DNA of 48,093 nucleotides from Pirellulaceae bacterium. GTDB lineage: Bacteria; Planctomycetota; Planctomycetia; Pirellulales; Pirellulaceae. Both the position numbers and the translations under genes were made by a program. The notes below the pieces were generated by a model. It saw nothing but the letters and a program-made list of their open reading frames with translations, did not search any database and was not told the origin of the DNA. Below are positions 21,617 through 40,885 of the stretch, one piece after another; within the stretch, counting starts at the first letter, position 1, and each line of letters begins with the position of its first letter. The DNA is taken from contig JALSIV010000358.1 in NCBI GenBank assembly GCA_026989685.1, positions 1 through 48,093 of the forward strand. The letters run 5' to 3'.

Positions 21617-21676
21617 CCTAGCGCGGGCGGCGCCCGCAAGGCTGCAGCCTTCAGGCGGGAGACCGGAGGCTGTAGG
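21617..21676 (+). repeat. dispersed hairpin repeat, copy 1
   Basis: A 60-bp sequence that starts CCTAGCGCGGGC and ends GGAGGCTGTAGG. Its first half forms the stem GCGGGC-GGC-GCCCGC. A near-identical copy on the opposite strand is at 41384-41442, and a partial one is at 31089-31117. It lies between the small membrane gene and ilvD; positions 21553-21837 otherwise hold only a second repeat. Confidence 0.7.
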
Positions 21677-21706
21677 AGCGGTGGTGGCAACGGAAAGCCG
21701 GTGTCA

Positions 21707-21793
21707 GAGGCTGCCACAAGACTCATCACAAAACCCCATGCTGCAAGCAACACTCCCGAAGCCGGAGAGCGGCGCGGCGGGTTGGGTTACAGG
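21707..21793 (+). repeat. degenerate copy of the 78-bp miniature element
   Basis: It begins GAGGCTGCCACAAGACTC and shares ATGCTGCAAGCAACA and a GGCG-CGGCGGGTT-GGTTACAGG end with the 78-bp elements at 38588, 38669 and 39457. It is about 9 bp longer, with a partly duplicated left end (TCACAAAAC again), and its right end and flanking TAA are lost. It is probably an old copy. Confidence 0.65.
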
Positions 21794-21837
21794 ATTGAAC
21801 ATGCCCGCACGGCGCGTGGATGTTACGAAGCGAGAGT

Positions 21838-23517
21838 CTAACCGTCCGTGACGCATCCTTGGGACGCTGGCCGAACCAGTTGCGTGTACTTGTAAAGGAC
21901 GCCGCGAGTCACCTTGGGTGGCGGGGCGGTCCAAGCCGTACGACGGGCGGCCAGTTCCTCCTCCGTGCAATCCACGTCGATCCGGTTCTCGACAGCGTCG
22001 ATGGTGATTCGGTCGCCGTCCTTGATAAGCGCGATGGGACCGCCAACCTGCGCTTCAGGGACCAGATGGCCCACAATGAAGCCGTGCGATCCGCCGGAAA
22101 AACGACCATCGGTGATCAGCGCCACGTGGCCGCCCAGTCCGGCGCCGACGATGGCCGAGGTCGGAGTCAGCATTTCGGGCATGCCGGGACCGCCTTTGGG
22201 ACCCTCGTAACGAATTACCACCACGTCTCCTTTTTCGATCTGATTCTGCTCGAGGGCTCGCAACATGGCTTCTTCCGAATCGAACACCCGTGCCGGGCCG
22301 GAAAATCGTTCCCCTTCCTTCCCCGTGATCTTGGCCACGGCCCCATCGGGAGCCAGGTTGCCTCGCAGAATCTGAATGTGGCCGGTCGGTTTGAGCGGCC
22401 GATCGATGGGACGGACGATGGTCTGACCGTCTGCCAGTGGCCGGCAATCTTCCAGGTTCTCCGCCAGCGTCTTTCCGGTGACCGTCAGGCAATCGCCGTG
22501 GAGCAGTCCGTTTTCGAGTAAGTATTTGAAGACGGCCGGCGTGCCTCCGACCGAATGCAGGTCCTCTTGCACAAACCGGCCGCTCGGCTTGAGGTCGGCC
22601 AAGTAGGGAACCCGGTCGCTGATCCGTTGAAAGTCATCTAGGGAGAGCGGCACATCGACGGCGTGAGCCATCGCCAACAGGTGGAGCACGGCGTTGGTGG
22701 AACCGCCGAGCGCCATCACCACGGTGATGGCGTTTTCGAAGGCTCGAGCCGTCATGATGTCCCTCGGCTTGATGTCCCGCTCCAGCAGCAGTCGAATGGC
22801 GGCTGCCGCCTGGCGGCATTCGGCCCGTTTCTGCGGATCCTCGGCCGGCACCGAAGCCGAGTAGGGAAGCGACATTCCCAGTGCCTCGATAGCGCTGGCC
22901 ATGGTGTTGGCGGTGTACATGCCTCCGCAAGCGCCGGCACCGGGACAGGAGCGGCGGATAATCTCGCGGCGCTGCTCGTCATCGATCTCGCCCGAGAGGA
23001 ACTGGCCGTAGCACTGAAAGGCCGAGACGATGTCGAGCTTCTGATCGTTCCAGTGTCCCGGCCGGATGGTCCCGCCGTAGATCATCAGCGCCGGCCGATT
23101 GAGCCGCCCCATCGCCATCAAACAACCCGGCATATTCTTGTCGCATCCGGGAAGGGCGATCAGGGCGTCGTACCATTGCGCTCCCATGATCGTCTCGATC
23201 GAATCGGCGATCAGATCCCGCGATGGCAGCGAGTAACTCATTCCGGCCGTTCCCATGGAAATGCCGTCGCTCACGCCGATCGTGTTGAACCGCATGCCGA
23301 CCAGCTCCTGGTCGGCCATCGCACCTTTGACCTCGGCCGCCAGCTCATTGAGGTGCATGTTGCAGGTGTTGCCTTCATACCACACGCTGGCGATACCGAC
23401 TTGCGGCTTGTCGAGGTCCTCCTCGGACAAACCGGTACCCAGCAACATCGCCTGCGACGCTCCTTGACTCTTGGCCTGAGTGATCGTCCGGCTGTAGCGG
23501 TTCAATCCTTGAGACAT
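21838..23517 (-). CDS. ilvD: dihydroxy-acid dehydratase
   Basis: A 559-residue iron-sulfur enzyme that dehydrates 2,3-dihydroxy-isovalerate and its homologue, the third shared step of valine, leucine and isoleucine synthesis. GCDKNMPGC starts near Cys125, [11 protein letters not shown] contains Cys197, and a third cysteine in [11 protein letters not shown] (near residue 55) completes the usual cluster ligands. The C-terminal [11 protein letters not shown] and [16 protein letters not shown] stretches are family signatures. ATG 23517 ([15 protein letters not shown]) matches the family start; an in-frame codon 99 bp upstream would add unrelated sequence. No other branched-chain gene is adjacent. 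Repeats occupy the region just after its stop. Confidence 0.96.
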
Positions 23518-38518: not shown

Positions 38519-38554
38519 CCACGATCGGCTCGGTACGACAGAACCGCTTACGGC
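38519..38554 (+). repeat. 36-bp dispersed repeat, copy 2
   Basis: Same orientation as the copy at 28897-28932 and about 31 of 36 identical. It begins CCACGATCGGCTCGG and ends CCGCTTACGGC. The two copies lie in different gene contexts, so the repeat is not tied to one gene. Confidence 0.6.
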
Positions 38555-38587
38555 ATGGACGCACGGCGCGTAGATGTGGTAAAGTAA

Positions 38588-38665
38588 GAGGCTGTCACAA
38601 AACTCCATGCTGCAAGCAACATGCCCGAGGCCGGAAAGCGGCACGGCGGGTTTTGTTACAGGCTC
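38588..38665 (+). repeat. 78-bp miniature element, copy B
   Basis: A 78-bp element starting GAGGCTGTCACAAAACTCC and ending GGGTTTTGTTACAGGCTC. The ends are imperfect inverted repeats of about 19 bp. It is preceded by TAA (38585-38587) and followed by TAA (38666-38668). It resembles a non-autonomous MITE whose target site is TAA. No transposase lies in the window. Confidence 0.85.
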
Positions 38666-38668
38666 TAA

Positions 38669-38746
38669 GAGGCTGTCACAAAACTCCGTGCCGCAAGCAA
38701 CACATCCGAGCTTCGGAGGTGGGACGGCAGGTTTTGTTACAGGCTC
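38669..38746 (+). repeat. 78-bp miniature element, copy C
   Basis: Also exactly 78 bp, same orientation as copy B, sharing the TAA at 38666-38668 and followed by TAA (38747-38749). Its centre differs from copy B (CATCCGAGCTTCGGAGG instead of ATGCCCGAGGCCGG), so it is not a recent tandem duplication of B. Confidence 0.85.
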
Positions 38747-38787
38747 TAAGAATCTAACAATCGACCACAACTCGTGAGATTTCAACC

Positions 38788-39306
38788 ATGGCGTCCACCA
38801 CTCCGTCAGAATGTTCCTCCACTTCTCGCGAGTCCGTACGGACCCGACTGGCCGATCTGCAGTCCCCCACCGACCTGTCCACGACGATCGAACTGCTCGA
38901 CATGTACGCTCGAGAACCGATGGGGGCCGGCGAGCCGTTGGCGGCCGAGGTCCTCGAGCGCCTGAGGTCCGACCTGCCGACGCTCGAGAGATTGCTGGTG
39001 ATCCTCGCCGAAGATGCGGGCGGACGTGCAGTCGGGTTGGCGTTTTGCCTGATGGGCTATTCCACGTTCTATGCGCGGCCTCTGATCAACATCCATGATC
39101 TGGCCGTCGTCCCCGAAGCGCGCGGCCAAGGCGTCGGCGCCTCGCTACTCCACGCCGTCCTCGAACAGGCCCGGCAGAGAGACTGCTGCAAGGTGACTTT
39201 GGAAGTGCGCAGCGACAACGATGGCGCTCAGCGACTCTACCGGAGATTCGGTTTCACCGGCGGCCCGCGCAAATCGGCCATGCAGTTTTGGACACGGCAT
39301 CTCTAG
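38788..39306 (+). CDS. GNAT-family N-acetyltransferase
   Basis: A 172-residue acetyltransferase. The acetyl-CoA binding motif is VVPEARGQGVGASLLHAVLE (about residues 111-130), preceded by INIHDLAV, and the C-terminal DGAQRLYRRFGFTGG segment completes the fold. It would acetylate a small molecule or protein amine; no neighbour indicates the substrate. ATG 38788 follows the MITE pair by 40 bp. It is bounded on both sides by repeats. Confidence 0.9.
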   Translation: MASTTPSECSSTSRESVRTRLADLQSPTDLSTTIELLDMYAREPMGAGEPLAAEVLERLRSDLPTLERLLVILAEDAGGRAVGLAFCLMGYSTFYARPLINIHDLAVVPEARGQGVGASLLHAVLEQARQRDCCKVTLEVRSDNDGAQRLYRRFGFTGGPRKSAMQFWTRHL

Positions 39307-39378
39307 GGCAAACGGTCCAGCCGCGAAGCGGTCATAGCATCGATCCGAATGGCACGCGGATAAGAGCAGAAGGGATCT

Positions 39379-39402
39379 CACGGAGGCACGGGGGCACGGA
39401 GA
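39379..39402 (+). repeat. 8-bp tandem repeat
   Basis: Three copies of an octamer, CACGGAGG, CACGGGGG and CACGGAGA, stand in direct succession. They lie in the gap between the GNAT gene and copy D of the miniature element. Confidence 0.7.
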
Positions 39403-39456
39403 AGATAGAGGACAAAGGGAGAAGATGGGGAACGATAGGCGTTTCTGGAAGTATAA

Positions 39457-39534
39457 GAGCCTGTAACAAGACCCGCCGTGCCGTTCTTCGGCCTCGGGTG
39501 TGTTGCTTGCGGCAGGGAGTTTTGTGACAGCCTC
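39457..39534 (-). repeat. 78-bp miniature element, copy D
   Basis: Exactly 78 bp in the opposite orientation to copies B and C. It starts GAGCCTGTAACAAGACC on the plus strand and ends AGTTTTGTGACAGCCTC. TAA flanks it on both sides (39454-39456 and 39535-39537). It lies directly before the broken nuclease frame. Confidence 0.85.
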
Positions 39535-39546
39535 TAAGAACTCTAA

Positions 39547-40194
39547 GAACTCACAGACACCCACCAGGCATGCTGCGCCGAGCGGCACCCGATCGCCACG
39601 CGACACAAATGGTTCTCCGAAATGTTGTCGTCGATCTCGATCTGCCTGCTGTGCGATGTGCTGTTTTCCGACCGCGGGGTGCCGCACCACCGTTTCCAGC
39701 TTCCCGATGCCGAGCACGGTCGGACGTTGGCGGAGACGATCGAGGTACACACGGTGGAGTTGGCAAAGTACAATATCCGAGAAGAGGCGATCGCGGAGGC
39801 GTCCCAGATCGAGAAATGGGTGTTTTTCCTGCGATATGCGGACAGGTATGACGCCGGGCGTCTGCGGGCGCTGTTTCCGGAGGAGCCGTTTCAGCAGGCC
39901 ATATCGGAGGCGGAGCGGATTGCCGAGCGGACGGTGGACCGGATGATGTACGACCAGCGTGAGAAAGCACTGCGGGACTACCAGTGGGCGATCGAGAGCG
40001 CCCGCCGCGAAGGACTCGAAAAAGGGCGCGAACAAGGACGCGAGGAAGGTGTCCTGATTGGTAAGATCCAAGTGCTCGAGCAGCTTTTGGGCGACACTCC
40101 TACTCCAACGGCGCGTCTGTTGCAACGTTCCGTTTCCGAGCTGAATGCGATGGTTGCGCAACTTCAGGAGCGTTTGCGTCACCGCAGAGCGTAG
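39547..40194 (+). pseudogene. 5'-truncated Rpn/PD-(D/E)XK-family nuclease remnant
   Basis: The plus strand encodes the C-terminal two-thirds of an Rpn-type (recombination-promoting nuclease, PD-(D/E)XK transposase-like) protein. SSISICLLCDVLFSD, VPHHRFQLPDAEHGRTL and EVHTVELAKYN, then EKWVFFLRYADRYDA and the charged helix REGLEKGREQGREEG, are family features. The expected N-terminal catalytic region (about 100 residues) is absent: the open frame begins at 39547, directly after MITE copy D, and a TAA closes it upstream. ATG 39622 would give 190 residues, but without the catalytic half it is unlikely to work. The 16-bp gap to nnrE is tight. Confidence 0.7.
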
Positions 40195-40210
40195 CAGCGG
40201 CGAGAGTCGA

Positions 40211-40885
40211 TCACCTGAGAAGATCCCACACACGACGGGGCAACCCGATGTCGACCACTCGGACCTCGCCGGTATAGTGCGAGGCGCCGGCTTGAGCGAA
40301 TCCCGGTTTGGGAGCGACCAGCGTCACGGTGCAGTCGGCACGGAAAGCCACTCCTGCGACTTCACCGCTGTCCGCGTCCAGTCCACTGGGCAGATCGATG
40401 GCCAGGCGTCGGCCGGCCGCTCGATTGAGCAGCTCGATGTCTTCGGCCATCGGCGACCGGGGCGCTCCCTTGGCTCCCGTTCCCAGGAGGCCGTCCACGA
40501 TCCAGTCGGCCGTCTCCAGCGCCTCGATCAACTCGGGCCACCGGGAGGTAGCAGGCCGAACCGCCAACGGAATCCTGGCACGCTCCAGGATCTCGAAATT
40601 GCGATGGGCATCCGGAGCCAGCTTCTCCGGGACGCCCCACAGAAAGACGCGAACAGCGTGCCCTCGCCCGTCGAGTTGCCGAGCCACCACCAGCCCGTCG
40701 CCTCCATTGTTGCCGCGGCCGCAACAGATCACGACCGGCCCCTCGATCCCCAACTGTTCCAACTGGTCCGCCACACCGCGCCCGGCGTTTTCCATCAAGA
40801 TGGTGCCTGGAATCCGCAGCTCATCGATGGCCAGGCGGTCGAGGCGGCGCACCTCGTCTCGCTTTAACGTGGCAGGACGCTTCAT
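40211..40885 (-). CDS. nnrE: NAD(P)H-hydrate epimerase
   Basis: A 224-residue protein of the YjeF N-terminal family, which repairs hydrated NAD(P)H by epimerising it before dehydration. The dinucleotide-binding core starts GPVVICCGRGNNGGDGLVVA, followed by DWIVDGLLGTGAKGAPRSP and AIDLPSGLDADSG. The paired dehydratase domain (NnrD) is absent from this protein and from this window. ATG 40885 (MKRPATLKRDEV) is chosen; an ATG 45 bp upstream adds 15 residues. It ends 16 bp after the nuclease remnant and is divergent from the zinc ribbon gene. Confidence 0.93.
   Translation of the reverse strand: MKRPATLKRDEVRRLDRLAIDELRIPGTILMENAGRGVADQLEQLGIEGPVVICCGRGNNGGDGLVVARQLDGRGHAVRVFLWGVPEKLAPDAHRNFEILERARIPLAVRPATSRWPELIEALETADWIVDGLLGTGAKGAPRSPMAEDIELLNRAAGRRLAIDLPSGLDADSGEVAGVAFRADCTVTLVAPKPGFAQAGASHYTGEVRVVDIGLPRRVWDLLR

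Follow-up and report, generated by a model that had tools for sequence, protein, structure and literature searches.

Prokaryotic MITEs, as reviewed in PMC10969869, are short, have inverted ends and a target duplication, reach high copy numbers and lack a transposase gene. The 78-bp family described here shares all of these properties but differs by its recurrent head-to-tail pairs on one target triplet and by a frame-neutral step of 81 bp. The Rickettsia palindromic elements, about 150 bp long and mostly genic (PMC10969869), are likewise palindromic and found in frame within genes; in contrast to them, the 78-bp family has a transposon-type target duplication, many intergenic copies and few verified genic cases. 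A further likeness is to the subgroups of the IS5 family with 3-bp TNA targets, with which the family shares a 3-bp TWA duplication and GAGGCTGT-type ends, and the same order contains full-length elements that combine ends of this kind with an IS5-family transposase, whereas the 78-bp element carries no transposase. The subgroup resembled is presumably that of the IS1031-like IS5 elements.

Among eukaryotes, the Tourist MITEs of PIF/Harbinger type target TWA. They have the MITE form and, according to PMC2213677, a 3-bp target duplication, as does our family, which is however bacterial. Full-length MITEs in tandem have been described as coral CMITE arrays and ascribed to replication slippage (PMC2872659), whereas the pairs of the 78-bp family are mostly separate insertions. 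REP elements are recognized by a palindrome of 20-40 bp and a GTAG or CGTC tag (PMC3733652); the present element, with its 78 bp and GAG...CTC ends, has neither.

Two adjacent copies in the window

The window, a stretch of 48,093 nucleotides from a Pirellulaceae bacterium, contains the following features.

21719..21796, plus strand: fourth family copy, degenerate, about 60 bits in the profile search, without an intact duplication
38554..38584, plus strand: terminal part of another dispersed repeat, R2 (...ACGGCGCGTAGATGTTACGAAG / TAAGACTCTAAC), which hosts the pair; from R2 matches in the sample
38585..38587, plus strand: left TAA target duplication; direct reading and family flank statistics
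38588..38665, plus strand: copy B, 78-bp element; one mismatch to the single copy L184:6766 (contig C372)
38666..38668, plus strand: TAA common to copies B and C; direct reading and genome-wide junction search
38669..38746, plus strand: copy C, 78-bp element of the subtype with a GAGCTTCGGAGGTGG centre; identical to the single copy L126:2129 (contig C177)
38747..38749, plus strand: right TAA target duplication; direct reading
38750..38758, plus strand: R2 resuming beyond the pair with GAATCTAAC, the second half of the empty site; direct reading and R2 matches
39457..39534, minus strand: third family copy, with TTA/TTA flanks

Read directly, positions 38585-38749 are TAA - 78 bp - TAA - 78 bp - TAA, with both copies in one orientation, a TAA outside each and a single one between them, exactly as the sequence-only reading had it. 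The ends, GAGGCTGTCACAAAAC and GTTTTGTTACAGGCTC, form the imperfect inverted repeat that it had also described: among the first 16 positions 14 are complementary to the opposite end, the mismatches at 4/75 and 9/70 being fixed, and no transposase gene lies within the 78 bp. Copies B and C are 82% identical, differing at 14 positions (18%), mostly central ones, and each is matched at 99-100% by a single copy at an unrelated site, with one mismatch for B and none for C. As the two are this divergent and each has a near-identical distant single, the window pair consists of two insertions and is not a duplication, which upholds the earlier proposal on the same point. A 362-aa ORF on the minus strand (window 39145-40233) reads in frame through the third copy; no Pfam domain was found in it, and it may be no gene.

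The host sequence gives the layout of the site before insertion. The R2 end in the window reads ...GATGTTACGAAGTAAGACTCTAAC, and removal of B+TAA and C+TAA leaves GATGTGGTAAAG-TAA-GAATCTAAC, which is the uninterrupted R2 form present elsewhere. R2 has 59 matches in the 1.4 Mb sample, a few of them probably due to chance, including uninterrupted copies and copies broken at the same TAA as in the window, and it flanks 32 of the sampled element copies. In the window R2 (...GGCTGTAGGGGTGGTGGTGACAACCGAAAGCC...ACGGCGCGTAGATGTTACGAAGTAAGACTCTAAC) is seen at 21617-21850 and 38554-38584, and the MITE has often inserted into this repeat. A search for the orthologous empty site in the genus-mate genome gave only a short fragment as the best match to the window locus, and so yielded no empty site.

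Family, target site and putative transposase

The family was surveyed in the window plus 100 further stretches, together 1.40 Mb of the 4.73-Mb assembly; these stretches were picked mostly for carrying copies, and densities in the sample are therefore biased upward. The profile search gave 186 hits in the sample, 177 of them extendable to near-full length and 165 exactly 78 bp long, and the end pattern, allowing up to two mismatches, was matched 362 times in the whole assembly against none for the reversed-pattern control; the end motif is far commoner than chance in both window and genome. The expectation of many copies elsewhere was thus borne out. Eight pairs of copies at unrelated sites are fully identical, which points to recent movement on the scale of sequence drift. 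Related 78-bp elements were found in the genus-mate genome G001, where they are about 75% identical, and in genome G076. An exact match to a 22-base end pattern was found, among named genomes, only in the MAG Planctomycetales bacterium S012_138, and a plasmid search with the element-encoded peptide found no match. Elsewhere in the same order, the genomes G070 (L185, L203, L212), G108 (L186) and G216/G220 (L196, L198, L207) have further short elements, 130-137 and 89-91 bp long, whose ends are of the GAGGCT type and whose flanks are TWA; these are several related MITE families.

The flanks of single copies were TAA/TAA in 46 cases, TTA/TTA in 14 and mixed TAA/TTA in none. Matching flank triplets were found in 60 of 118 singles, where shuffling would give about 34 and at most 48, and about half of the single copies lack an intact duplication. 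The flanking TWA is a transposon-type target-site duplication, and together with the dispersed identical copies it supports the transposon origin suggested beforehand. In the orientation of the element the consensus site is C-T(A/T)A-(G/A)-A. The earlier idea of a preference for TAA is correct in that TAA is duplicated, but it was too narrow, the target being TWA in a CTWAGA context. Often, as in 25 copies (e.g., L096:5702, L167:7415, L128:5753), the left TAA is intact and the right flank reads GAA in place of TAA, a T-to-G change according to the cases hosted by R2. Selection against a stop codon was considered for this change and found unsupported, since the left TAA still closes the frame in most such copies.

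A search for an insertion sequence with matching ends had also been suggested, and elements with similar ends exist in other genomes of the order, but none was found in the window assembly. In G046 an element of 918 bp (L238:1616-2533), with ends GAGGCTATGACAGAAC and GTTTTGTCACAGCCTC and TAA/TAA flanks, codes for a 302-aa IS5-family transposase (NF033580 at 128.9 bits, cut-off 110; PF13340; PF01609). The same genome has an internally deleted relative of 431 bp with TTA/TTA flanks (L242:568-998), and this deletion derivative beside the complete element is a MITE-like intermediate. G067, from the same family as the window genome, has an IS of 876 bp with GAGGCTGTTTCAAAAC ends, whose IS5-type gene is split over two frames. 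The ends of these IS5-family elements are similar, not identical, to those of the 78-bp element. In the window assembly we detected no PF13340 match and no homologue of the G067 transposase, although at 92% completeness of this genome a missing transposase is not proof of absence. Within the 1.4 Mb, inverted ends spaced 300-4000 bp from each other enclosed no transposase-bearing element. A PF01609 gene at C11 was considered as the autonomous partner and discarded, as it is a PF13701-type transposase gene with a copy of the element inside it.

Origin of the side-by-side pairs

We counted 30 adjacent junctions in the sample, all head-to-tail with a spacing of 3-4 bp, and a genome-wide junction search gave about 36, head-to-tail only among the forms listed; the arrangement seen in the window is thus recurrent, which the sequence-only reading had not anticipated. 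A target model trained on single copies only, and applied with model windows of different width, forecasts about 12, 22 or 32 pairs, depending on that width, against the 30 seen. The element's own junctions have hundreds of times the average weight in this model, because the GAG...CTC ends plus TAA rebuild CTAAGA, and the re-creation of its own target mostly explains the pairs. The model forecasts only about 2:1 for same over opposite orientation, and yet inverted pairs were not found at all (P about 1e-5 to 3e-4 under the model), so a further cause is needed beyond the modelled bias. An inverted pair would be a near-perfect palindrome of 159 bp and would therefore tend to be lost by cells and by short-read assemblies; perhaps this instability is behind the missing inverted pairs.

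The perfect 81-bp register and head-to-tail order of every junction would also be expected if the pair were a tandem duplication of one 81-bp unit, by replication slippage or unequal crossing-over, which is how the coral arrays have been explained (PMC2872659), and a few other arrays in this genome, namely the L119 triple and the pairs at L128 and L146, are indeed duplications. At L128 (99%) and L146 (97%) the pair mates are mutual nearest relatives, and these and the triple are a minority of true tandem duplications, a further amendment to the earlier picture. The triple array (L119:11464-11703) has CTC replacing TAA between copies and private variants common to all three. For most paired copies, however, the nearest relative is not the pair mate, and the divergence of B and C and their near-identical singles at unrelated sites speak against this origin, which we find improbable; for the window pair it is refuted unless later gene conversion swapped the centre of one copy. 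With the obvious duplications left out, pair mates are still slightly more alike than chance (0.860 vs 0.836, p=0.0006), and duplication or gene conversion thus contributes to some extent.

Another route would be transposition of the IS30 or IS911 type, in which the two copies arise together from a dimer or circle intermediate whose ends abut. A dimer is expected to show copies in head-to-tail order and a short spacer of fixed length, and all junctions have this geometry, but two halves derived from one copy would be identical, and in most pairs they are not, which makes such an origin very improbable. Both copies form good folds as single-stranded DNA (z -5.3 and -6.2), as would be expected of a structured RNA or a regulatory hairpin repeat that is no transposon; we find this scarcely credible, given that the stem positions vary with almost no compensatory changes, that RNAalifold returned no consensus structure, and that target duplication and identical copies at scattered sites are marks of a transposon.

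We consider it highly probable that the 78-bp element is a non-autonomous MITE moved by an IS5-family transposase and that its re-created target explains the pairs. The putative mover, of the NF033580 type (DUF4096 plus DDE), would act in trans, duplicating a 3-bp TWA target and favouring the CTWAGA context. As the element starts with GAG and finishes with CTC, an inserted copy rebuilds C-TAA-GA at its junctions, and a later element would often hit such a junction exactly, leaving two copies with one TAA between them; pairs in inverted orientation would disappear, either in the cell or during assembly.

Copies inside genes

Element plus duplication add up to 81 bp, and most copies (132-139 of 165; 56-68 after shuffling) are open from end to end in three of the six frames. 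In-frame insertion into genes with insertion-free relatives was found in two cases. In an ABC-2 permease gene a single copy follows ATG-TCT-AAG and adds 27 in-frame residues, so that the protein reads MSK-RLSQNSMPQATRPRSGSGTAGFVTGSK-ALVIARREY, and the relative in G039, which is without them, reads MSKSLVIAGREF. The second case is a NAPRTase gene containing a pair, which contributes 54 in-frame residues ahead of TFLLTDLYQLTMLQGY, where the genus-mate genome reads MSVPLLLTDLYQLTMLQGY. Another copy, at L086:5943-6020, is in frame within the domain match of a PF13701-type transposase gene, with flanks changed to CGA and GAA; most others of the 20 long copy-containing ORFs scanned had no domain or a domain on one side only. 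We infer that genic copies would be translated, in which case the ABC-2 permease or the NAPRTase would have a peptide such as RLSQNSMPQATRPR close to its N-terminus.

The family might even be a planctomycete counterpart of the Rickettsia palindromic elements, in which selection keeps the 81-bp footprint and the three open frames; we hold this to be doubtful, but if true, single copies and self-targeted pairs would repeatedly add 27 or 54 residues and leave the proteins unbroken.

We regard the 78-bp elements as a new MITE family of the IS5 type from Planctomycetes, which works like known IS5-type mini-transposons. What the analysis adds is a quantitative account of why pairs form, together with the in-frame cases. 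It shows in numbers, from sequence only, how a mini-transposon stacks on itself when its ends rebuild its own target, and it offers many natural cases for testing the harmless lengthening of proteins by a frame-neutral mobile element outside Rickettsia.
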